From Leptolyngbyaceae cyanobacterium JSC-12 (GTDB lineage: Bacteria; Cyanobacteriota; Cyanobacteriia; Leptolyngbyales; Leptolyngbyaceae), in assembly GCA_000309945.1 (NCBI GenBank), contig CM001633.1, positions 4,227,912 through 4,291,911 of the forward strand: a stretch of DNA of 64,000 nt. Direction: 5' to 3'. This document shows, piece after piece, positions 5,046 through 17,735 of this stretch. The position numbers and the translations under genes are program-made. Positions within the stretch are counted from its first letter, which is position 1, and each line of letters opens with the position of its first letter. Below the pieces are notes generated by a model. That model was not told where the DNA came from. It saw only the letters and a list, made by a program, of their open reading frames with translations, and ran no database searches.

Positions 5046-8000
5046 TTAGTTGGAATTCTGGGCGATCGCTTGATGAATGGAGTCCAGCAGTTCAGTCATG
5101 GAAATCGGAGGAGTCAGAATCTGCGTCGCAAGCTGTTGGACTTCCTGTGGCAAAGGTGTTAAAGACGTTATTTCCAACTCCGAATTACGATGATCAAGCA
5201 GAATGATCGGTGGTTTGTTGGCTAACGTGTGCAACTCGGCTAACTTTGCCAACATCCCTGATGATGGCTCGGTAGCCGTCCAACAGAGCAACAGCAAATC
5301 CACACTTTGCGACTCAATCTGTTGCATCACTTCTTGCCAGGAACGCCCCATCAATCCGCGCAGTCCCGCTGTTTGTAAGTATTGGAGCAACGCTTGTAGC
5401 CACTCTGTTTCTTGAGGAAAGTGTCCCAATGCTTCATCCACTGATTCTGAACCATGCCTGCTCTCGGTAGATAAGAGCAAGGTTGAAACATCAACTGCCA
5501 AAATTGAAGGACGCCAAACACATCCTGCCGCAATTTGAATCACTTGCAGCAGGGTTGAAATTTCTGGAGAATCATCGGCGATCGCAGCACTGTCAGCCCC
5601 TATCAGGCAGGGAAACACCAGCAAACCTGAAACCTGGCTGGCAGCTTGAGTGGTTTTTTGATCCAGCGTGATGAGCGGTAAGGAGGCCAGCATTGGGCGA
5701 TAGCTTAACTGTTGCAGATAGTCCAGCGGATTCCTAAGTTCACCACTCAACAACACCACATTTGGCTTCCAGACTCGGGCTAAGAGTTCTGCTTGTTCTA
5801 AATCATCTGATTCTAAAATTCGATACTGCCGTGCTTGCAGGAAGCGGCTTAAGTAACTGTCGGTCGAGAATTCTGTTGGATGATGAGGTTGATTGGTAAA
5901 CAAGTGCAGAATTGTCAGATTGTTTGCAGTCTGCGGGAGCACGTCCAGTTCTTTCGGGTCAAACAATACCTGTTGTAATGTTTGTTTGAGTTCTTTGGGC
6001 TGAATCGGTAGTTTCAAAAAACTGTCTGCCCGGCTCCGGAGTGCCTGCTCCTCATCAATCACGGTGGCAGTAATAACGACAGGAATTGTCTGAGTTTCAG
6101 TATTGGATTTTAGCAGTGTTAAGACATCCCAGCCGGATAGCAGGGGCAGTAATGGGTTGAGAAAAATAATACAGGGTTGTAGGCGCCGTGCTTTTTCCAG
6201 CGCTTCGGTGCCCGATCGCGCAATCACAACACGATACCCCAGCCCAATTAACTGCTCTGAAAGAGACTCAACGAAATGGGGAACAGCATCCACGATCAAC
6301 ATCAGGCGATCTCGCAATCTGGGAGGATCCGGAGGTGTATCAATCCCCGTTTCGGTTGCATCGCGCTGAGAATACAGGGGAACTCGTCCACTGGGGAAAA
6401 CTATAGACAGATCTTCCGCCGCTGCGTCTTCTTTCTCTCCCCGGATGAGTTGGGTTTGGTCAGGTGGGGCAGGAGGCAGCAAAATCGTAAACTGGCTTCC
6501 CTGGTTTTCTTTTGAGGTAAAGGTTACATCACCGCCATGCAGTCTTGCCAGACGCCGGGTAAGAACTAGTCCCAACCCCGCGCCTTCAAATTGGCGAGTC
6601 AGTGGATTTTCTAACTGTTGAAATTTTTGGAATATCAGGTGTTGCTTTTCAGCCGGAATTCCAATTCCTGTATCCCAAACAGTAAAGGCAATCCATCCAC
6701 CCCAGCGACTCACCTTTAACCCAAGCGGATGCCCAATTTCAGTGAACTTAAGGGAATTGGACAGGAGATGAACCAGCATTTGACGCAATCGCAGGTCATC
6801 TGCAATTAAAGTGGTTAAGTTTGGCTCAATCTCCAACGAAAACTGCGCCACAATTTGCTCTTCTTCCAGGGGATAGGGGGTTTTATGATCGAGCAGCCGA
6901 TTTTGCTTTGCCTGTTCAAACGCACGATTGCAAGCGATCGCAATATCCACCGGACTGTATATTAACTCTAACTGTCCTGTCTCAATCCGAGTCAGGTCAA
7001 GAATATCATTCACCACACCCATCAAATGGCGACTGCTCTGGTAAATCAGTTGGGCGTAGTGCACTTGCCGCTGGTTCAGTTCTCCTAGAGTTTGATCTTT
7101 TAACAGGCTGGATAGCCCTAATACCGCTGTTAGAGGCGTTTTTAACTCATGACTAATACACGCCAGGAACTCATCTTTGAGGCGATTTAGCTGTACTAAA
7201 TCAGCATTTTTAGCAGTCAGTTCTCTGGCAAGATGTTGCTGCTTAGTGACATCCTGCGCCAGAATCAGCCATAGCGACTCATTAGCAGCTTGAGACAACT
7301 CTGAATTGGCACGTATAGACGGGAAATCTGGAACGGTGAGTGTGTCGTGGTTCGGGAATGGCAAGGGAACTGCTTCAGATGTAGAGACCAGGGTTGCCAG
7401 AGTGAATGGATGGGGTTGAGCTGGGGTAGATTCTGTTGCGTGGGAATGCTTTGCTGGAGCAGGGGTCGGCTTTGACCAATCCAGTTTCAAGTCGGGCAAT
7501 AGTGAACCAAGTGACACTTTGACAAATTGCAAGACTTGTTCTCGTCCATCTTTAAGAGGACAAACACAGACGCAGGTATCTGGATTGGTTCCAAGCTGGC
7601 AGATGCTTTCTGCACTGGAGGATAGACGGTCAGCCGTGGGCGATCGCAGGGATGCATCATCAGGCAACCAGGGGGTTCTAGTATCCTGAGTAGGCTCCGA
7701 TGGTGCCTGCCCGCTTAACCAGACTGCCGCTTCCTGCCAGATTTTGACAGGATCAGACAATTCACCCACTTGTTCCCGCCAAACCCGGTTTTGTGCAACC
7801 ACCTGTCCGCTACTTGTTTGCAGCATTAAGGGGATTGGCAACCGCTCTAACAATTGCAGCAGTGAGTCTAGGAGAGTTTGCTGGCGAGACGGGTCCGTGG
7901 AAAGATTGGCTGTATAGAGAACAGTACTGAGTGGCACCTGCGGCATCCTATGACGTAACCGCAGGTGCAAAATTTCCTCCTGCTGAGTTTTGATGCGTTG

Positions 8001-8666
8001 TTCCAGATCTGCCCGCTGTGCCAACAATTGTTGAGTGAGTTTGAGAATTTGCTGTTGTTGGACGTGGTACTGCGGGGTAACTAACGGTTTGAGCCGTTCA
8101 GCCGAAGATTCCACCTGAAAGGATTCAACCTCACTTGAATCGATACTTGTTTTACCAACAGATTCCCTCGCTTGATGGGCAAGCGGTGGATGGACAAGTG
8201 ATTGATTGTCAAGCACCGCTGCCAAGCTTTCTGCTAAAGCCTGTAGCAAGCGCTCTCGCTCTAGCAACCCAAGCAGCTCACCCGCCTGATTAACCAAGGC
8301 GTAATGAGTGTCGGGTTGGGCAGAGAGGTGCGGCAGAAATTGCTGCAGCGTCCAGGCGGCTGGCAACGCAGTGAGTGGCTCAATAATGGATGCTGAAAGA
8401 TTTTGGAGCGGACATGCTAAAACAGCAGGGATATCTGGCAACGTTGCCTTGGCAGCGTCGGATGGAAGCGACAAGGCGGCTAACAAATAGGGCAATAACC
8501 GATGAAGTTGCACCAGCCCCAGGGGTTGTTGCCACGCATCTGTGATCACCAGGCGATCGCCCCCGCTCTGGCTCATCGTTTCTAAAATCGCCTTAAGAGA
8601 CGCTGCGCCAGAACAAGCTGGAAGCGGCTGCACAAACTCTTCAAGACAAATGTCGGTTAAGGACAT
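5046..8666 (-). CDS. Hybrid histidine kinase: tandem CBS, PAS-like, HisKA, HATPase and three degenerate receiver-like modules
   Basis: In order, the 1206-residue protein shows two CBS-like repeats (about 13-60 and 95-150), a coiled coil (about 203-240) and a weak PAS-like stretch (about 265-305). A long variable linker leads to HisKA with CISHELKTPLT (phospho-His about 506) and a HATPase with N box (HLLSNSLKF), DTGIGI and GAGLGL. REC1 (about 785-900) keeps one acidic-pocket Asp and the Lys, but has Asn (LNPLLP, about 837) where the phospho-Asp should be. Two further receiver-like modules have Ser (LLSGEL, about 974) and Cys (LLLLCW, about 1128) there. The start is ATG 8666, with GGAAGG six bases upstream; a TTG at 8672 is less likely. 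It is transcribed away from kaiA across a shared spacer. A clock input/output role like CikA, whose pseudo-receiver binds KaiB, is an inference from position and architecture. Confidence 0.9.
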   Translation of the reverse strand: MSLTDICLEEFVQPLPACSGAASLKAILETMSQSGGDRLVITDAWQQPLGLVQLHRLLPYLLAALSLPSDAAKATLPDIPAVLACPLQNLSASIIEPLTALPAAWTLQQFLPHLSAQPDTHYALVNQAGELLGLLERERLLQALAESLAAVLDNQSLVHPPLAHQARESVGKTSIDSSEVESFQVESSAERLKPLVTPQYHVQQQQILKLTQQLLAQRADLEQRIKTQQEEILHLRLRHRMPQVPLSTVLYTANLSTDPSRQQTLLDSLLQLLERLPIPLMLQTSSGQVVAQNRVWREQVGELSDPVKIWQEAAVWLSGQAPSEPTQDTRTPWLPDDASLRSPTADRLSSSAESICQLGTNPDTCVCVCPLKDGREQVLQFVKVSLGSLLPDLKLDWSKPTPAPAKHSHATESTPAQPHPFTLATLVSTSEAVPLPFPNHDTLTVPDFPSIRANSELSQAANESLWLILAQDVTKQQHLARELTAKNADLVQLNRLKDEFLACISHELKTPLTAVLGLSSLLKDQTLGELNQRQVHYAQLIYQSSRHLMGVVNDILDLTRIETGQLELIYSPVDIAIACNRAFEQAKQNRLLDHKTPYPLEEEQIVAQFSLEIEPNLTTLIADDLRLRQMLVHLLSNSLKFTEIGHPLGLKVSRWGGWIAFTVWDTGIGIPAEKQHLIFQKFQQLENPLTRQFEGAGLGLVLTRRLARLHGGDVTFTSKENQGSQFTILLPPAPPDQTQLIRGEKEDAAAEDLSIVFPSGRVPLYSQRDATETGIDTPPDPPRLRDRLMLIVDAVPHFVESLSEQLIGLGYRVVIARSGTEALEKARRLQPCIIFLNPLLPLLSGWDVLTLLKSNTETQTIPVVITATVIDEEQALRSRADSFLKLPIQPKELKQTLQQVLFDPKELDVLPQTANNLTILHLFTNQPHHPTEFSTDSYLSRFLQARQYRILESDDLEQAELLARVWKPNVVLLSGELRNPLDYLQQLSYRPMLASLPLITLDQKTTQAASQVSGLLVFPCLIGADSAAIADDSPEISTLLQVIQIAAGCVWRPSILAVDVSTLLLSTESRHGSESVDEALGHFPQETEWLQALLQYLQTAGLRGLMGRSWQEVMQQIESQSVDLLLLCWTATEPSSGMLAKLAELHTLANKPPIILLDHRNSELEITSLTPLPQEVQQLATQILTPPISMTELLDSIHQAIAQNSN

Positions 8667-8969
8667 AGCCAACCTTCCCCGAAGGGAAAAAGGAGCATAG
8701 CTTCGCTGACGGTGGGGCAGAGAGTTTTCGATCTATCCTCCAATTATGACGCTGGAAAAGAGCCAGTTAGGCAGCGATTATAATTAATTCAAAGTTTAAC
8801 TATGTCGAAAATTTAAGTATTTCAAGAATATAAACGAATGTAATCTTTCGCGTTATATTTGCAACGATCAGTATTACTAGGTAAAGTAGCGTTACATTTA
8901 GGTTTATATTTAATTAATATTTTGAGTATCCTAAATTTCTAAGTTGACTCTCTTCCCCCACCCTGAGCC
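8667..8969. promoter_or_regulatory. Divergent AT-rich control region between hybrid kinase and kaiA
   Basis: This 303-bp spacer is much more AT-rich than its flanks. An 11-base direct repeat GCGTTAYATTT occurs at 8850-8860 and 8889-8899 with 10/11 identity and a 39-bp period. GTTACATT at 8891-8898 equals one half of the HLR1 consensus recognised by the response regulator RpaB. An inverted version (AATGTAAT) lies near 8838-8845. No gene is visible in it. Confidence 0.45.
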
Positions 8970-9842
8970 TTGCATTCTATCCTCCTGACTTGTACTTTTC
9001 TGCCATTGGATACGTTGGCTCAAGCGGTTTCTGAGCGTTTGAGTGGCGATCGCTACTGTGTGATGATAGGTCGCACAGTGGAAGCGTTCTGTCAATTAGT
9101 TGAGAAAGAAAAACACCGTCTGGATTGCCTGATTTTGCAAGACAGCCCAGAATTGCCTCAAGTCATAACCTGGTTGTATGGACATGCGATCCTTCTGCCC
9201 GCTGTGATCCTGGCTGACTTTGCCGAGTCAATCCCTGCTGCGGCTGGAACTGGCGAGCAAAAGTCTTTTCGCTATCACACTGCTGAAGTGACTCTATCCA
9301 GGGCAGACCTTGACCAGATTAATCAACGCATTGAGCAGGCGATCGCGCAATTCGTTGGATTGTCACCTATTCCCTGGAATAAAACCGACCCATCTGCCAA
9401 AACAATGGCTGAGTTATTAGCGAATCATCCATTAGTTCAGCAGCAGCAGCGACTAACTGAAAAACTGAGGGAGCGACTGGGGTACCTGGGCGTGTACTAC
9501 AAACGAGATCCCAAAAACTTCTTCCGTCACTTGCCACCGGAACAGAAACATCAGCTATTAGAAAAGCTCAAAACGGATTATCGGGATATTGTTCTACGCT
9601 ACTTTGCAAATGATGGTACGCTAAATCAGCGAATTGACGACTTCGTAAACACCGCCTTTTTCACCGATGTTTCTGCTGCACAAATTGTAGAAATTCACAT
9701 GGAGTTAATGGACGAATTTTCCAAACAGTTAAAATTGGAAGGGCGCAGTGAGGAAATCTTATTAGACTATCGCCTCACCCTTATCGACACGATCGCCCAT
9801 CTCTGTGAAATGTATCGACGTTCTATTCCTAGAGAGTCCTAA
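8970..9842 (+). CDS. kaiA: Circadian clock protein KaiA (full length)
   Basis: KaiA stimulates KaiC autophosphorylation by binding the KaiC C-terminal tail, and is sequestered by the KaiB-KaiC complex at night. The 290 residues comprise the N-terminal pseudo-receiver (about 1-135), a linker and the C-terminal four-helix domain. The latter begins with the highly conserved [14 protein letters not shown] and contains the DYR...[13 protein letters not shown] terminus. The length matches unicellular cyanobacteria rather than the shortened KaiA of Nostoc-type species. The start is TTG 8970, chosen because it gives the expected N-terminus ([10 protein letters not shown]). kaiB follows after only 38 bases, suggesting kaiABC can be read as one transcript. 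The divergent hybrid kinase shares the upstream region. Confidence 0.97.
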
Positions 9843-9880: not shown

Positions 9881-10210
9881 ATGAGTCCTCTTAAAAAAAC
9901 CTATGTTCTGAAACTCTACGTTGCGGGCAATACTCCAAATTCAATTCGAGCCTTAAAAACCCTGAATACGATCCTCGAAGAAGAATTTAAAGGAGTCTAT
10001 GCACTTAAAGTCATTGATGTTTTGAAAAATCCCCAACTGGCAGAGGAAGACAAGATTTTGGCAACTCCAACCTTAGCAAAAATTCTGCCGCCGCCTGTGC
10101 GTAAAATCATTGGCGACCTCTCTGATCGTGAAAAAGTACTTATTGGTCTTGATCTGCTCTATGAAGAATTGCGGGAAGACGAAGCCGGAATTGATGACGA
10201 GGTGCTTTGA
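9881..10210 (+). CDS. kaiB: Circadian clock protein KaiB
   Basis: KaiB is the metamorphic thioredoxin-like protein that, in its fold-switched state, binds the CI ring of phosphorylated KaiC, captures KaiA, and in the known system competes with SasA and docks CikA. The 109 residues match the family from start to end: [12 protein letters not shown], the central [18 protein letters not shown] and [14 protein letters not shown], ending in an acidic tail. ATG 9881 is the only sensible start. It lies 38 bases after kaiA and 94 before kaiC, in the standard order. Nothing is missing or unusual in the protein. Confidence 0.98.
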
Positions 10211-10304: not shown

Positions 10305-11855
10305 ATGAATCAACTTAATCAAGAAGCCAACAACGGGCTCAACTCAGTCGGAGTCCAAAAAATACGGACTTTAATTGAAGGCTTTGATGATATTAGTCAT
10401 GGCGGGTTGCCTGTTGGCAGAACTACCTTGGTAAGTGGAACCTCTGGCACTGGAAAAACCCTTCTAGCAGTTCAGTTTCTCTACAATGGCATCACCTATT
10501 TTGATGAGCCTGGGATATTTGTAACGTTTGAAGAAGCCCCTGCTGATATCATCAAAAATGCCTTCAGCTTTGGGTGGGATCTGCAAAAGCTAATTGATGA
10601 AGGCAAGTTATTTATTTTGGATGCATCCCCCGACCCTGAAGGACAGGATGTTGTGGGAAATTTTGATCTATCTGCCCTGATTGAGCGCATCCAGTACGCC
10701 ATTCGTAAATATCGAGCCAAACGGGTGTCGATTGATTCGGTCACTGCTATCTTTCAGCAATACGATGCTGCTTCGGTGGTACGGCGCGAAATCTTTCGGT
10801 TGGTGGCACGCTTAAAGCAAGTAGGAGCGACCACTATCATGACTACAGAGCGAGTGGACGAGTATGGTCCGGTTGCTCGCTTTGGAGTAGAAGAGTTTGT
10901 GTCGGATAATGTGGTGATCGTTCGCAATGTGCTGGAAGGAGAACGCCGCCGTCGTACGATCGAAATCTTGAAACTACGCGGTACTACCCATATGAAAGGG
11001 GAGTATCCGTTCACGATTACTAATTACGGGATCAATATCTTCCCGCTGGGAGCAATGCGCCTAACGCAGCGATCGTCTAATGTCCGCGTATCTTCGGGAG
11101 TCAAAACCCTGGACGAGATGTGCGGTGGTGGTTTTTTCAAAGATTCGATTATTCTTGCAACCGGGGCAACTGGGACGGGCAAGACTCTGCTAGTCAGCAA
11201 GTTTTTGCAGGAGAGTTGTAGTCGGGGCGAACGAGCAATGTTATTTGCCTATGAAGAATCTCGTGCCCAATTGTCTCGTAATGCCTATTCTTGGGGGATT
11301 GACTTTGAAGATTTAGAACAAAAGGGCTTACTGAAAATCCTCTGTGCCTATCCAGAATCTGCAGGTTTGGAAGATCATTTGCAGATTATTAAGTCTGAAA
11401 TTGCGGAGTTTAAGCCTGCCCGAATTGCGATCGATTCTCTGTCTGCCCTGGCGCGGGGGGTAAGCAACAATGCGTTTCGGCAGTTTGTGATTGGCGTGAC
11501 TGGATTCGCCAAGCAGGAAGAAATCACGGGCTTTTTTACCAACACCACTGACCAGTTCATGGGATCACATTCTATTACCGATTCCCACATTTCCACCATT
11601 ACCGACACAATTTTGATGCTGCAATATGTGGAAATTCGTGGAGAAATGTCGCGGGCGATCAACGTGTTTAAGATGCGCGGTTCCTGGCATGACAAGGGTA
11701 TTCGCGAATACACGATTAGCGAGCACGGGGCTGAAATCAAAGATTCATTCCGTAACTTTGAACGGATTATCAGCGGTTCCCCTACGCGCATCTCGATAGA
11801 TGAAAAGAGCGAACTGTCTCGGATTATGCGGGGTGTGCAGCGAGACGATGAGTAG
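10305..11855 (+). CDS. kaiC: Circadian clock ATPase/kinase KaiC
   Basis: KaiC is the hexameric double-RecA ATPase at the core of the clock. It autophosphorylates and dephosphorylates on a daily cycle set by KaiA and KaiB. Both P-loops are intact: CI GTSGTGKT (45-52) and [11 protein letters not shown] (287-294). Both catalytic Glu pairs are present (FEEAP about 76-77; YEESR about 317-318). The phosphorylation pair is Ser430-Thr431 in SHISTITDT, matching Ser431/Thr432 of S. elongatus. The A-loop and C-terminal tail that KaiA binds are present and conserved (SGSPTRISIDEKSEL). The 516-residue length is normal. It ends the kai cluster; an antisense aminotransferase remnant and a monooxygenase gene follow. 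Confidence 0.99.
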   Translation: MNQLNQEANNGLNSVGVQKIRTLIEGFDDISHGGLPVGRTTLVSGTSGTGKTLLAVQFLYNGITYFDEPGIFVTFEEAPADIIKNAFSFGWDLQKLIDEGKLFILDASPDPEGQDVVGNFDLSALIERIQYAIRKYRAKRVSIDSVTAIFQQYDAASVVRREIFRLVARLKQVGATTIMTTERVDEYGPVARFGVEEFVSDNVVIVRNVLEGERRRRTIEILKLRGTTHMKGEYPFTITNYGINIFPLGAMRLTQRSSNVRVSSGVKTLDEMCGGGFFKDSIILATGATGTGKTLLVSKFLQESCSRGERAMLFAYEESRAQLSRNAYSWGIDFEDLEQKGLLKILCAYPESAGLEDHLQIIKSEIAEFKPARIAIDSLSALARGVSNNAFRQFVIGVTGFAKQEEITGFFTNTTDQFMGSHSITDSHISTITDTILMLQYVEIRGEMSRAINVFKMRGSWHDKGIREYTISEHGAEIKDSFRNFERIISGSPTRISIDEKSELSRIMRGVQRDDE

Positions 11856-12086: not shown

Positions 12087-13373
12087 ATGCTTTTGGAGCC
12101 GCAAACTCTTTTTCCCATTCAGCCAACGCCCGGTGTTCAAGCGAATCCACAACCAATTGATTCTCAGCCAAGGCAACTTGACTACGATGTGGCGATTGTT
12201 GGTGGTGGTATTGTAGGACTCACCTTTGCCTGTGCCTTGAAAGACTCTGGCTTAAAGGTTGTACTCATTGAGGCAAAACAAGAGTCGGCGGCGGTTTCCA
12301 GAGGGCAGGCATATCATGTAAATTTGCTTTCCAGCCGCATTTTCGAAGGGATTGGCGTGTGGCAGCACATGCGCCCCAACGTGAATCCGATTGAGCAAAT
12401 TCGCTTATCCGATGGGGACTACCCTGGCGTAGTTCGGTTTTTGCTGCAAGATTTAGCATCCCCCACATTAGGCTATGTTTCTGAGCATCGGGTGTTGTTA
12501 GAGGCGCTGCGATCATTTTTGCAACAGTGCCACAATGTTGCCTACCTGTGTCCAGTGGAACTCCGCGCTACTCGATTTCATTCAGATGCAGTGGAATTGG
12601 ATTTAAGGCAGGGAGAAGAAACCTGGACAGCACGATCGCGGTTGTTGGTTGCTGCTGATGGAGCGCGATCGCCAATTCGGCAACAAGCAGGCATTCGCAC
12701 CGTTGGCTGGCAATATTGGCAATCGTGCGTAGTCGCATTCATCAAGCCCGAAAAACCTCACCAAAATATTGCCTACGAACGCTTTCAGGCAGACGGTCCA
12801 TTTGCAATTTTGCCACTACCCGGAAATATTTGCCGGATTGTGTGGACGGCTCCCAAACAAGAGGCAGAAGCAATTCTGGCACTGGATGATGCAGCATTTT
12901 TGGCGAAGCTGAAACCCCGCTATGGTGACCAGATGGGTAATCTGGAACTAGTGGGAGATCGCTACTTGTTTCCGGTTCAATTGATGCACAGTCATCGATA
13001 TGTGCAATCCCGACTGGCGCTAATTGGGGATGCAGCACACTGTTGCCATCCCGTAGGTGGGCAGGGTGTGAATCTGGGCATTCGCGATGCCGCAGCTTTA
13101 GCGGAGGTACTGAAAACAGCGCACCAACAAGGGCACGATTTGGGTGAACTGAAAACGTTGCGTCAGTATGAACGCTGGCGCAAATTGGAAAACTGGAAAA
13201 TTCTGGCATTTACTGACTTTCTTGATCGCCTCTTTTCCAATACGATTCTTCCCATTGTGATGCTGCGTCGAGTGGGTTTGTGGATGTTGCAAAACCTGCA
13301 TCCAGTGAAACAAGTTGCCTTAAGGCTCATGGTGGGGTTGAGCGATCGCCCTCCCAAATTGGCACAGCGATAA
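12087..13373 (+). CDS. FAD-dependent aromatic hydroxylase of the UbiH/COQ6 family
   Basis: Flavoprotein monooxygenase of the p-hydroxybenzoate hydroxylase fold. It shows the dinucleotide GxGxxG (VGGGIVGLTFA) at residues 36-50, the DG motif (AADGARSPIRQQ) near 190 and the GD motif (LIGDAAHCCHPVGGQGVNLG) near 313-332. UbiH/COQ6 relatives hydroxylate prenylated quinone rings with NAD(P)H and O2. Cyanobacteria lack ubiquinone but encode one or more members, thought to act in plastoquinone or related quinone metabolism; the actual substrate is not readable here. A 30-residue N-terminal extension precedes the Rossmann fold. It is convergent with trxB, with a hairpin between them. Confidence 0.85.
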   Translation: MLLEPQTLFPIQPTPGVQANPQPIDSQPRQLDYDVAIVGGGIVGLTFACALKDSGLKVVLIEAKQESAAVSRGQAYHVNLLSSRIFEGIGVWQHMRPNVNPIEQIRLSDGDYPGVVRFLLQDLASPTLGYVSEHRVLLEALRSFLQQCHNVAYLCPVELRATRFHSDAVELDLRQGEETWTARSRLLVAADGARSPIRQQAGIRTVGWQYWQSCVVAFIKPEKPHQNIAYERFQADGPFAILPLPGNICRIVWTAPKQEAEAILALDDAAFLAKLKPRYGDQMGNLELVGDRYLFPVQLMHSHRYVQSRLALIGDAAHCCHPVGGQGVNLGIRDAAALAEVLKTAHQQGHDLGELKTLRQYERWRKLENWKILAFTDFLDRLFSNTILPIVMLRRVGLWMLQNLHPVKQVALRLMVGLSDRPPKLAQR

Positions 13374-13440: not shown

Positions 13441-14811
13441 CTAGAGGTTTGCTTGCAGCAGTTCGCGATACTGACTCTTTTGTTTCACACCCTTAAGCTC
13501 ACTCACCTTTTCCTTCAGCTTAAAGACTTGAACTGTAGGAGTGCCAATAACACCAGCCGCTTCCGCAATTTCAGGATCCTGCTCAATGTCGATATTGACG
13601 TAGTGAATCTTGCCGTCAAATTCGTCAATCACTTTACTAAGAATGGGTTTGAGGGTATGGCAGGGACCACACTGAGGTGAAGAGTACAGTACCAGAATGG
13701 GGCGATCGCTTTCATGATAGAGCTTCCGTAGAGCATAGCTCCCCGTATGACGAGTCGCAGTCGGGTCAAATTCTGTAGACTGCTGTTCCTCAGTCTTTTT
13801 CTCTGGAGCTTGAGCCGGATGGGTTTCTGCCTCTTTCGTCTGGTGAAACTCCTGAATCAAACCATTGGCAGACAAATATCGTTCTGCCAGCAGCGCTGCC
13901 ATACAGCCCGTACCCGCCGCAGTGATCGCTTGCCGGAATTCATGATCCTGCACATCTCCAGCCGCATACACCCCTTCCACACTAGTTTCTACAGATCCGT
14001 GTTGAGTCTTCACATAACCAACCTCATCCAGTTCAATCTGCCCTCTAAATAGAGAGGTGTTCGGCGTATGCCCGATCGCATAGAACAACCCCTTAACCCG
14101 CAGTTCACTCTCTTCGCCCGTCTGGTTATTCTTAAGCTTCACCCCCTGCATATGATCCGCTTCACCAAACACGTCTAGAATCTCCGTATTCCAGTGAACC
14201 GTAATCTTGTCATTCTGCAACACCCGGTCTTGCATCGCTTTGCTCGCACGCATTTTGTCACTGCGCACTAACAGATGCACGTGAGAACCATACTTGGTCA
14301 GGTATACGGCTTCCTCTGCGGCGGAATCACCCCCCCCCACCACTGCCAGTTCTGCTTGCCGGAAGATGGGTGTCGCTCCATCGCAAATGGCACAGGCAGA
14401 AATGCCTCGGCTCCAAAACAGGTGTTCATTGGATAATCCCAGGCGCTTTGCTGTTGCGCCTGTAGCAATAATCACGCTGTGTGCTCGAACTTCCCGATCT
14501 TCAGAGCGGATTACAAATGGACGCTGGCTAAAATCGACCTCAGTAACATCTTCGGTCACCAATTCAGCCCCCCACCGCAACGCCTGTTCTTTCATCCGGG
14601 TCATCAACATTGGGCCGGTAATTCCTTCAGGAAAACCAGGAAAATTTTCAACTTCAGTGGTGGTCATGAGTTGCCCACCTGGCAACCCTCCTGCCTGAAA
14701 GCCTTCAAACACAAAAGGCTTCAGGTTTGCCCGTGCGGCGTAGATAGCGGCTGTATACCCTGCTGGACCAGAACCAATAATCACAACGTTTTCAACGGGT
14801 GAGGTACTCAT
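13441..14811 (-). CDS. trxB: NADPH-thioredoxin reductase C (NTRC): thioredoxin reductase fused to thioredoxin
   Basis: The bifunctional protein uses NADPH to reduce its own thioredoxin domain, which in cyanobacteria and plastids regenerates 2-Cys peroxiredoxin. Residues 1-315 are the FAD/NADPH reductase, with [10 protein letters not shown] and the redox pair CAIC (Cys140, Cys143). A charged linker (about 325-350) leads to thioredoxin with CGPC (Cys381, Cys384). The total of 456 aa is typical of NTRC. Start ATG 14811. A typical 2-Cys peroxiredoxin, the usual client, is encoded about 21 kb away at 36 kb rather than adjacent. Confidence 0.96.
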
Positions 14812-14954
14812 GCTCTATCTAAACTCATAACGACTACGCCTAGTATACTACACATTTCTTATTTATTAATCCCAGGAAAACGCAAAAGATCTTCTGTATG
14901 GCTATATAAATCTGTGATTTCGCATGGGCGGCTATTTTGTCTGCATTCCCTGTT

Positions 14955-17735
14955 ATGAAACATACTGACGCAATCGCTCCTTTGTTGCTGCTAACCACGC
15001 TCATTTCGCTTGTGCCGTCTCCCGTAGCTGCGCAGATTTCTGCAACACCAGACGGCACCAACACACTAGTGAATCAAGCAGGAAATACCTTCAATATCAC
15101 GGGTGGCACTCAGGCAGGTACCAATTTATTTCATAGTTTTCAGCAGTTTGGGCTGAATCAGGGACAAATCGCCAATTTTTTGTCCAATCCTGCCATTGCT
15201 AATATCTTAGGGCGGGTCACAGGCGGCGATGCCTCGGTAATCAATGGACTGATGCAGGTGACTGGCAGCAACGCCAACCTGTATCTAATGAATCCAGCGG
15301 GGATTGTGTTTGGACCCAATGCCAGCCTAAATGTGCCTGCCGCCTTCACTGCCACCACTGCCAACGGCATTGGAATTGGCAATGGCTGGTTTAACGCCAC
15401 AGGCACTAACAACTATGCCAATCTAACTGGAACACCCAATAGCTTTGCGTTTACGGTTACTCAACCGGGGGCGATCGTCAATGCAGGTAATCTTGCCGTT
15501 AGTCAAGGGCAGGATCTTACACTACTGGGGGGAACTGTTGTCAACACTGGGTCTGTTTCGGCACCGGGCGGGACCGTGACCATCGCGGCTGTTCCTGGAG
15601 AAAAGTTGGTGCGCCTTAGCCAACCTGGGAATCTGCTGAGTCTGGAGTTCCAACCTCTGCCGACTGGAATGGCGACTCCTGCAATTTCTCCTCCAACTCT
15701 ACCGCAATTGTTGACAGGGGGAAATTTGAGGAGTGCTACGGGCTTAACAGTTGAGAATGGAATTGTGAAATTAGTGGGGGCAGAAAGTGCGATCGCGCCT
15801 GGTGATGTCACTGCTAAAGCGGTGACATCCCAAACTGCAACCCTCTCTGCTAACAACAACGTAATCCTGGTTGAAAGTCAACTTCAGACTACGGGCGATT
15901 TGAATTTGTTGGCAAAGAACACCGTCACTGTGCGAGATAGTGTAGCGCAACCAGTCGCGGTGCAAGCGGGGCGTGATCTAACCATTCAGGGCAACCAGGG
16001 AATTGATATCCTGGCGCTGAACCATCGGCAAACCAACAAACCTTTCCAAGCGGGACGCGACCTTAACTTGGTTAGCGATGGAATGATTTCGGGCGATGCC
16101 CATTTTGGCAGCGGTGGCAACTTTTCCACGCGATCGCTCAACGGCGGTCCGGCTACTTTTATCAGCCTCAATGATCCGGTGATTAGCTCCAACGGCAATG
16201 TGACGTTTCTCGGTTCCTATACGGGAGCCTCACTGAAAGTAGAAGCGATCGGCAATATTCGATTTACTGGCAATGTGACTATCAACAATCCCGACCCTGG
16301 TGCAGTGGACGCTAACGCAGCTGATCAGGCGCTATTGCAAGGAGGACGTGCCTTAATTCTGCGGGTTGGACGCACCACCCTTGATAACCCCAACAACGTC
16401 CCCAATGGCACGTTTATCAATCCGGGCGGAATTACTACTCCTGGCAGCATTCAAGTAGATGGAGACATTACCGGGGAAAGCGGACCTGTCACGGTGGTAA
16501 TGTCTGCACCTGGAAATATTGCCACTCAAGGAATCAGTAACGCCAATGCCATAACGGTTGACACTCCCAGCAACATATTTGTCAGAAGCGTCAGCGGTAG
16601 CTCGGTGCGCTTAACCAGCACTGCCGGAACTGTGACGCTTGGCACTCCGGCCGATTCAGACGTTGGCAATTTTGGTGGCACGTTTATCATCTCCGCCACC
16701 AACGGAATTCTTGCCAATGGAAGGATTATGGGTGGGCGCATTGAGCTATCTTCCTCAAGTGGAAATATCATTGTAAACACTGTTCGGGGTGGCTCTGCGG
16801 GAGTAGATATCAATGCAGCCGGGCTTTTTCAGGCGCGGGGCGGAACAGAGTTATTGAATGTGTTTTTGCAAACGCGGGCAGCAGACAATCCTGAAGTCAA
16901 TAGTTTCCTGCAATCTAAGGGAATTAATCTTCCACCCGATCAAATTGTCACTGTGCATTACGAGTTTGGCAACGCGGGCCAAAGTCTGCCGATTATCTAC
17001 AGCGTGGGTGCATCGCAAAGTGACAGTGCGCCTGCAGGTTCGCTGAATGCCCCGATTACGATTCGGTTTGGGGGTGCTACTCGAACATTAATCGATAATT
17101 CGTTCCCGATCACCGCAACCGATGGAAGCGGAACGATTACCCAGGGTCGGATTTTGGTTCAGGGCGGCGATGGCGCATTTTTCTTAGGTCCAACCACGAC
17201 TGGGAGACTCGTTCCTACCAATTCTGATCTCTTTTTAACAAAAGATGGGGGGGGCAACTTTATTCCGGTCACTGCTGCTAACTATACGGCTGGCACAATT
17301 CTTTACCGTAACGAAACCTATACGGCAGCGTTCCCTACGGCTGACTTCCCTGCCAATATTAGTGGGGTTGCTGGGTCGATTTATGTGGGCTTTGGGACAA
17401 ACCAAACGCTATATGGTGCTAGCCAAAGTCGGGTGTTTGCTCCGGTTCCCCCTAGCCCTCCAGTGGTTCCTCCAACAACCGAGAACCCAGGTTCTCTCAA
17501 TTCGGGGAATATTGCCCCTGCCAATAGACCGCAAGTAAGTAGCTCGGCGGGAGACGTAATCCAAAGAAACACTGATCGATCAGGTCAAACCAATGCTTGC
17601 GATGTAGGGTCGATCGCTACGAGGGATAGAGACACCCGTTCTAGCCGAGAAACCCGATTCACCCCCTGTGTCCCAACTTCTGATGAAGTGCAAATTCTCA
17701 AGATCTTAGGCGATGATGGGCAATCTAAACCGTAA
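14955..17735 (+). CDS. Two-partner-secretion exoprotein (filamentous haemagglutinin N-terminal domain, TpsA type)
   Basis: From ATG 14955 there is a clear signal peptide ending SPVAAQ, then the TPS/haemagglutination-activity domain. The latter has FNITGGTQ, the NLFHSFQQF segment, and NLYLMNPAGIVFGP with its conserved NPxG turn. About 600 residues of Gly/Asn/Thr-rich beta-helix repeats follow. The C-terminus has a Pro-rich linker (PVPPSPPVVPPTT) and a short tail with two Cys. Such proteins cross the outer membrane through a TpsB/FhaC barrel; no such partner gene is in the window. A TTG at 14937 would add six residues before the signal peptide and is less likely. The CHAT-TPR gene follows 22 bases later, so the two are almost certainly one operon. 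Confidence 0.92.
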   Translation: MKHTDAIAPLLLLTTLISLVPSPVAAQISATPDGTNTLVNQAGNTFNITGGTQAGTNLFHSFQQFGLNQGQIANFLSNPAIANILGRVTGGDASVINGLMQVTGSNANLYLMNPAGIVFGPNASLNVPAAFTATTANGIGIGNGWFNATGTNNYANLTGTPNSFAFTVTQPGAIVNAGNLAVSQGQDLTLLGGTVVNTGSVSAPGGTVTIAAVPGEKLVRLSQPGNLLSLEFQPLPTGMATPAISPPTLPQLLTGGNLRSATGLTVENGIVKLVGAESAIAPGDVTAKAVTSQTATLSANNNVILVESQLQTTGDLNLLAKNTVTVRDSVAQPVAVQAGRDLTIQGNQGIDILALNHRQTNKPFQAGRDLNLVSDGMISGDAHFGSGGNFSTRSLNGGPATFISLNDPVISSNGNVTFLGSYTGASLKVEAIGNIRFTGNVTINNPDPGAVDANAADQALLQGGRALILRVGRTTLDNPNNVPNGTFINPGGITTPGSIQVDGDITGESGPVTVVMSAPGNIATQGISNANAITVDTPSNIFVRSVSGSSVRLTSTAGTVTLGTPADSDVGNFGGTFIISATNGILANGRIMGGRIELSSSSGNIIVNTVRGGSAGVDINAAGLFQARGGTELLNVFLQTRAADNPEVNSFLQSKGINLPPDQIVTVHYEFGNAGQSLPIIYSVGASQSDSAPAGSLNAPITIRFGGATRTLIDNSFPITATDGSGTITQGRILVQGGDGAFFLGPTTTGRLVPTNSDLFLTKDGGGNFIPVTAANYTAGTILYRNETYTAAFPTADFPANISGVAGSIYVGFGTNQTLYGASQSRVFAPVPPSPPVVPPTTENPGSLNSGNIAPANRPQVSSSAGDVIQRNTDRSGQTNACDVGSIATRDRDTRSSRETRFTPCVPTSDEVQILKILGDDGQSKP

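Follow-up and report, generated by a model that had tools for sequence, protein, structure and literature searches.

The kinase gene facing kaiA

The window analysed here is a 64,000-nucleotide stretch of the genome of Leptolyngbyaceae cyanobacterium JSC-12 (contig CM001633.1, positions 4,227,912 to 4,291,911), and it contains the clock genes kaiA, kaiB and kaiC together with a divergently oriented gene encoding a histidine kinase (HK) of hybrid type with a tail of three receiver-like modules, R1, R2 and R3 (Table 1). An in-frame TTG lies 6 bases upstream of the ATG of this gene. As judged by sequence comparison, the protein belongs to a family of hybrid-type kinases with a pseudo-receiver tail that is tied to kaiA. 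An earlier note, made from the letters of this DNA, knew of no described clock kinase with such a layout, and none was found among the papers listed by searches of the open-access literature, nor any description of a kinase beside kaiA.

Table 1. Features of the kinase gene and of the adjoining kai genes, in window positions (pLDDT, predicted local distance difference test; E, expectation value)
Feature	Position	Strand	Basis and remarks
Kinase gene	5046..8666	-	1206 residues; ATG at 8666, stop at 5046-5048
CBS pair, residues 1-155	8202..8666	-	AlphaFold2 block with pLDDT 87-97, but about 57-68 at residues 61-80; Foldseek
Long helix, probably a coiled coil, residues 198-238	7953..8075	-	AlphaFold2
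PAS-like region with a long low-confidence insert, residues ~259-472	7251..7892	-	AlphaFold2 secondary structure
HisKA, residues 497-564, His506	6975..7178	-	Pfam, E 5.5e-18
HATPase_c, residues 623-732	6471..6800	-	Pfam, E 6.2e-25; N, G1 and G2 boxes intact
R1, pseudo-receiver, residues 788-901, Asn837 at the phospho-Asp position	5964..6305	-	Pfam, E 1.3e-12; AlphaFold2
R2, pseudo-receiver, residues 918-1046, Ser974	5529..5915	-	AlphaFold2; weak profile matches to receivers (best E 0.00084)
R3, pseudo-receiver, residues 1054-1205, Cys1128, optional in the family	5052..5507	-	AlphaFold2; hhalign; weak receiver matches
Divergent kinase-kaiA intergenic region	8667..8969	.	Sequence; divergent layout kept in relatives
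kaiA, with N-terminal pseudo-receiver	8970..9842	+	Pfam KaiA, E 4.1e-65; KaiA_N, E 6.2e-35
kaiB	9881..10210	+	
kaiC	10305..11855	+	TIGR02655, 1046.7 bits

The family was studied in an alignment of 55 sequences, namely the JSC-12 kinase and 54 relatives encoded beside kaiA, and in Pfam scans of 43 family sequences, and structures were predicted with AlphaFold2 run on family alignments. The kinase core of the JSC-12 protein is intact, as had been read from its letters: the phospho-acceptor His of HisKA and the N, G1 and G2 boxes of the ATPase domain are all present, and the His is kept in every aligned sequence (55/55). The N-terminal part, modelled with a mean pLDDT of 72.8, contains a real tandem CBS fold. 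In the window protein Pfam detected the second repeat only, below threshold (18.7 bits vs a cut-off of 24, E 0.0023), and across the family CBS was found at E ≤ 0.1 in 37 of the 43 sequences scanned (best 1.5e-7); moreover, the family profile matched CBS proteins in the PDB and the AlphaFold N-terminus resembled CBS pairs in Foldseek searches. The tandem CBS repeats of the earlier note were thus confirmed. That note had overlooked the long helix and the PAS-like region that follow them, and PAS_4 was matched in 8 of the 43 sequences.

Pseudo-receivers of the tail and degenerate ATPase domains

The tail was modelled as three (beta-alpha)5 folds with a mean pLDDT of 83.8, all three modules taking the receiver fold, and a predicted template modelling score of 0.53 leaves the relative placement of R1, R2 and R3 unfixed in the model. 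Pfam detects R1 alone of the three in the window protein, and R2 resembles Response_reg at E ≤ 0.1 in 7 of the 43 sequences. Structural searches bear mainly on R1 as well: Foldseek matches of the tail were obtained chiefly through this module, the PleD matches that span R1 and R2 doing so at a root-mean-square deviation of about 15-20 Å, and the structural comparison with VIA-align covered R1 almost alone. The assignment of R2 and R3 rests on AlphaFold secondary structure, on hhalign comparison with R1 (86% probability for R2 and 82% for R3) and on weak profile matches, the best receiver match of R3 being at E 0.016 and the best PDB match of its profile a non-receiver (E 0.015).

The residues at the phospho-acceptor positions of the window protein are Asn837, Ser974 and Cys1128, on which ground an internal phosphorelay was rejected for this protein. 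The Asn, Ser and Cys of the earlier note were read correctly in the window; as a trait of the family, the Asn of R1 was upheld (45/55, with Asp in 5/55) and the Ser of R2 was not, being peculiar to the window genome at a position where Asp prevails (42/55). In R1 the Lys site is occupied by Leu in 44/55 sequences. In R2, Leu takes the place of the first beta1 acid in 51/55 and Phe that of the Lys in 48/55, so that this module should not act as a normal receiver despite its common Asp. Among the 36 R3 sequences read, the acceptor residues include Cys (21), Tyr (9) and Asp (2). Receiver folds devoid of phosphorylation residues, which is what defines pseudo-receivers, were therefore found in the models and in the residue readings, and the phospho-Asp, beta1 acids and Lys of a phosphorelay hybrid kinase were not. 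These predicted folds and the loss of catalytic residues support the stacked pseudo-receiver tail that had been proposed. R2 was found in all 55 aligned sequences; R1 is mostly missing from two of them (L062 and L108), and R3 occurs in 36/55, a 37th sequence (L042) having been cut by the region used, its R3 being visible when the protein is taken whole (L281).

Which known pseudo-receivers the modules resemble was asked of profile comparisons. R1 is similar to the pseudo-receiver of the CikA-type protein of genome G036 (96% probability in hhalign). As specific sources of R2 and R3, the pseudo-receivers of CikA (represented by one sequence) and KaiA_N are unsupported by hhalign. The N-terminal pseudo-receiver of KaiA (PF21714) is of interest as a pseudo-receiver encoded at the same locus, but its profile comparison with the tail modules gave only 1-43% probability. 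PDB entry 2J48, which we take to be the CikA pseudo-receiver, is absent among the best 60 of the 112 PDB matches of the tail profile, which excludes nothing. The most constant elements are, in R1, alpha3 with the preceding loop and alpha2, in R2 alpha2, and in R3 alpha1. A 2025 review (PMC12632262) places the KaiB-binding surface of the CikA pseudo-receiver on alpha1-beta2-alpha2, and quinone binding by the KaiA pseudo-receiver near its beta3-alpha3 loop; the conserved elements of R1 and R2 may overlap these faces in part, which is only suggestive.

Part of the family has a degenerate ATPase domain. One or more of the ATPase box residues counted are changed in nine of the 55 sequences, and five of the 55 (L062, L069, L097, L108 and L114) have at least two boxes altered and retain both the phospho-acceptor His and R2. 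Low scores to HK profiles were also obtained for L254 and L255, congeners of L069 that likewise lie beside kaiA. In these three congeners all domains are under purifying selection, with ratios of nonsynonymous to synonymous substitution (dN/dS) of 0.016-0.247, the lowest being those of HisKA (0.016-0.035). Purifying selection on every domain indicates that the ATPase-degenerate form of this genus is not decaying. Full kinases and forms with a degenerate ATPase make up a natural series within the family, all beside kaiA, and on this series the role of the pseudo-receiver tail becomes directly testable.

Linkage to kaiA, inheritance and relation to CikA and SasA

The distribution of the family was surveyed in a phylum sample of 291 genomes, in which kaiA was identified by Pfam KaiA. 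The last 304 residues of the kinase, used as query, found matches in 82/291 genomes. With the R2 profile some match at E ≤ 0.001 was obtained in 100/291 genomes, and one strong match each in 81/291 (153-74 bits), the next scoring 43 (G290) and other receivers 36 or less. Out of the 122 genomes with kaiA, 80 are among the 81 with a strong R2 match and 42 among the other 210. The kinase lies divergently beside kaiA in 72/81 strong-R2 genomes, of which 71 were read directly (the JSC-12 genome, 54 from an initial set of 80 kaiA loci, and a further 16 that were picked because their coordinates already showed kinase and kaiA together) and one is the decayed copy of G141; contig ends forbid a verdict on placement in two of the 81 (G091 and G201). 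In the 71 genomes read, the distance from start to start is about 0.1 to 3.1 kb, mostly 100-1700 bp. Among named genomes, kaiA is divergent beside the kinase in 75 of the 80 best relatives, a set biased to close ones as the best 80 of at least 283; of the remaining five, three loci run into a contig end, and the available flank shows no kaiA in Tychonema sp. LEGE 07203 or in Microcoleus sp. LEGE 07076. The family includes filamentous Nostoc, Anabaena and Fischerella species, the members of these genera being relatives of engineerable strains. The earlier note had suggested a clock-coupled kinase and a survey of gene order in related genomes; the conserved divergent neighbourhood strongly supports a clock association for the family, much more than one window could show. 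Two of the findings that the note had named as refuting, a receiver fold in the first module only and a lack of homologues next to kaiA in other genomes, were not borne out.

With regard to inheritance, presence of the kinase beside kaiA required 11 changes on a KaiC tree, vs a mean of 21.5 and a minimum of 17 in 200 shuffles, a score in which moved genes count as absent and gain is not separated from loss. Carriers occur on both sides of the midpoint root of this tree, and the distances between kinases and between KaiC proteins correlate, with a Spearman coefficient of 0.56 across 53 loci vs no more than 0.28 in permutations. This clustering and correlation fit an old, largely vertically inherited gene that was repeatedly lost or moved. 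At locus L092 (G141, a genome of 2.8 Mb) a decayed kinase copy, interrupted by in-frame stops, still adjoins kaiA, and G177, which bears the same genus code, has an intact kinase beside kaiA. The kinase frame is split in two at four named loci (L138, L147, L161 and L202), by sequencing error or by decay.

The kinase is additional to the known clock kinases of its genome and replaces neither, since separate genes for SasA and for a CikA-type protein are present in JSC-12: SasA is encoded elsewhere with 546.5 bits, above the family cut-off, and so is a CikA-type protein with 465 bits, in a ranking where the window kinase comes tenth with 171 bits. In a tree of HK cores, 21 family members formed one clade (Shimodaira-Hasegawa-like approximate likelihood ratio test 99, quick search) and CikA another. 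These better-scoring genes and separate clades, together with the sub-cut-off score against SasA, make it very unlikely that the kinase is an orthologue of either. Like CikA, it has behind its HisKA/HATPase a C-terminal receiver fold devoid of phosphorylation residues, and it differs from CikA in having a CBS pair and a PAS-like region where CikA has GAF, as a rule two or three pseudo-receivers rather than one, a clade of its own, coexistence with a CikA-type gene and a place next to kaiA. GAF was not found in the Pfam scans of the window protein and family sequences. With SasA it has in common being a histidine kinase linked to the clock, but SasA model NF006800 gave 107.7 bits vs a cut-off of 342, in a match confined to profile positions 128-376 that leaves out the SasA N-terminal part.

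None of the best 25 of the 123 NCBIfam models matched reaches its cut-off. The best curated match was HrmK (NF038297; 279 bits vs a cut-off of 725), also a hybrid kinase with HK and receiver regions, and it covers the HK core and R1 only of the window kinase. ShkA of Caulobacter is a precedent for the gating of a hybrid kinase by a pseudo-receiver (PMC12632262), a likeness drawn from the literature; ShkA also has a working receiver, whereas in the window protein none of the modules looks competent. The closest HK core within the JSC-12 genome (G000:C1:2727317-2728003, 52% identity) belongs to a 1306-residue open frame that also matches CikA.

Genome G036 (2.8 Mb), which from its features is taken here for S. 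elongatus or a near relative, encodes a KaiA of 284 residues as well as a CikA-type protein, the end of which scores 201 bits with PDB 2J48. G036 gave no match to the R2 profile; its best match to the whole kinase is this CikA-type protein, through the HK core only.

Proposed role and competing explanations

Taken together, the results point to an undescribed family of kai-locus sensor (pseudo)kinases in which the pseudo-receivers would serve docking or gating rather than phosphorelay, a reading to which we would assign about an even chance of being right. In such a scheme the protein would be a dimer, probably cytosolic, which would read a ligand or partner through its CBS pair and usually also through the PAS-like region, and the N-terminal signal would pass to the HisKA/HATPase core. 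The three receiver modules would carry no phosphate by the usual chemistry, leaving no internal phosphorelay, and the output would go to a separate response regulator, for which an RpaA-type protein is the obvious candidate, and/or be exerted by direct binding. Signalling by docking is likely, and the pseudo-receivers would do the docking and gating. HisKA may be held back or oriented by R1, in line with the restraint of autophosphorylation reported for the CikA and ShkA pseudo-receivers (PMC12632262), and R2 would be the best candidate for docking on a Kai protein because it is kept in all 55 aligned sequences. A more specific proposal, advanced tentatively and with somewhat less than even confidence, is that the kinase may be a missed part of the clock, in effect an ancient fourth kai-locus gene, whose pseudo-receivers, and R2 in particular, would dock on the Kai complex, either in competition with CikA or as a complement to it. 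If this proposal is correct, some lineages would use the kinase as a scaffold or phosphatase without ATPase activity.

A number of observations weigh against this interpretation. The kinase is located away from kaiA in 7/81 strong-R2 genomes (G099, G105, G117, G151, G197, G256 and G249), and G249 carries it without any kaiA match; moreover, 26 of the initial 80 kaiA loci had no intact family member adjoining kaiA, several of these genomes carrying the kinase elsewhere. Being neighbours is no proof that two genes are coupled physically or functionally, and the support gathered here consists of sequence and models. An Asp is kept at the acceptor position of many R2 modules (42/55) and of some R1 (5/55) and R3 (2/36 read). 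R1 matches ordinary receivers at least as well as pseudo-receivers (PleD and DivK are among its best PDB matches), R2 and R3 showed no specific likeness to the CikA or KaiA pseudo-receivers in hhalign profile comparison (0.4-43%), and alpha1, an element of the CikA surface that KaiB binds, shows low conservation in R2 (mean 0.35) and an intermediate level in R1 (0.56). As to the ATPase-degenerate forms, selection was measured in a single genus, with three congeners, and the dN/dS of its HATPase domain (0.148-0.210) falls around the top of the range seen in intact forms (0.030-0.196). In addition, R2 scores 85 and 99 bits in L069 and L114 vs 134-140 in the other three degenerate forms; in the other kaiA-adjacent loci outside the L069 genus it scores about 91-165 bits.

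It is conceivable, and in our estimate unlikely though far from negligible, that the kinase merely shares a divergent promoter region with kaiA, being co-regulated with it or regulating it, and is otherwise an ordinary sensory kinase that makes no contact with Kai proteins. Divergence in all 71 loci read, mostly with 100-1700 bp between starts, is an arrangement common for co-regulated pairs, and the survival of the kinase away from kaiA in seven genomes indicates that adjacency is not essential. A slight excess of a light-response-like direct repeat, scored against a consensus, was also seen in 54 intergenic regions, that of the window (8667-8969) and those of 53 loci (mean 13.0 vs 12.1 of 16 in mononucleotide shuffles); promoter-like sites were rarer than in shuffles (5 vs 8.1), and so were terminator-like ones (4 vs 7.4). 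However, co-regulation by itself would leave unexplained both the near-strict co-occurrence with kaiA (80/81) and the ATPase-degenerate form kept under purifying selection beside kaiA. A further idea is that the protein is the CikA (or SasA) of its lineage under another design, and the HK core is 42% identical to that of the CikA-type protein of G036, which is the best match there, through that core. Given the better CikA-type and SasA genes of JSC-12, the separate clades, the failure of Pfam to detect GAF and the confinement of the SasA family model to the HK part, this is very improbable. Hardly credible at all is a conventional hybrid kinase whose internal phosphorelay works: the Asp found at the acceptor of most R2 and a few R1 modules would speak for it, but it is opposed by the acceptor residues of the window protein, by the Leu and Phe that replace the beta1 acid and the Lys in nearly all R2 modules, and by the prevailing Asn of R1.

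The earlier note had further proposed that the kinase senses energy charge, with the CBS pair binding AMP, ADP or ATP and reporting the adenylate state to the clock. Adenosine-binding CBS pairs usually carry a G-h-h-T/S-x-x-D motif, and this motif is mostly absent from both repeats of the 55 sequences. In the first repeat, the position of the ribose-binding Asp holds Arg in 21/55 and Asp in 3/55; in the second, G-h-h is followed by Asp in 40/55 or Asn in 11/55, and the ribose position is occupied by Arg in 27/55 and Lys in 9/55, basic residues thus being the commonest there. A canonical adenine-nucleotide CBS pair is therefore unsupported. The fold is that of a CBS pair, its matches include CBS proteins that bind nucleotides, the AMPK gamma subunit among them, and the clock is described as responsive to the ATP/ADP ratio in PMC7766417; with the motif lost from most sequences, energy-charge sensing appears improbable, and has been weakened to a guess beside which another ligand, or none, would be as likely.

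Should the kinase prove to be part of the clock, as the docking proposal has it, the input or output network described from the model would be incomplete for the 72 of the 122 kaiA-bearing sampled genomes that have it beside kaiA (one of them decayed), and its apparent absence from the model clock organism would be the reason why it was overlooked. S. elongatus is presented as having been the main model of the cyanobacterial clock in PMC12691664, where alternative clock kinases of Nostoc punctiforme were sought by the combination of GAF and kinase domains, a filter that a kai-locus kinase family without GAF would not pass. The portions available of two surveys of clock genes (PMC5520375 and PMC8113500) make no mention of a kai-locus kinase. 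A CBS-containing kinase of Arthrospira, at most a possible member of the kai-locus family, is mentioned in PMC7291507. In Anabaena, kaiA is alr2884, and one paper lists the neighbouring tag all2883 in a table of predicted CRP targets; from the gene numbering, our guess is that all2883 is the Anabaena member of the family.

Beyond kaiC, the window contains an FAD (flavin adenine dinucleotide)-binding monooxygenase-like gene (12087-13373) and, a short way downstream of kaiABC, a thioredoxin reductase with a C-terminal thioredoxin domain (13441-14811, minus strand), a fusion that is presumably of the NTRC type, the former gene being located between kaiABC and the latter. They are followed by a gene for a 932-residue protein with a TPS secretion domain (PF05860) at 14937-17735 on the plus strand.

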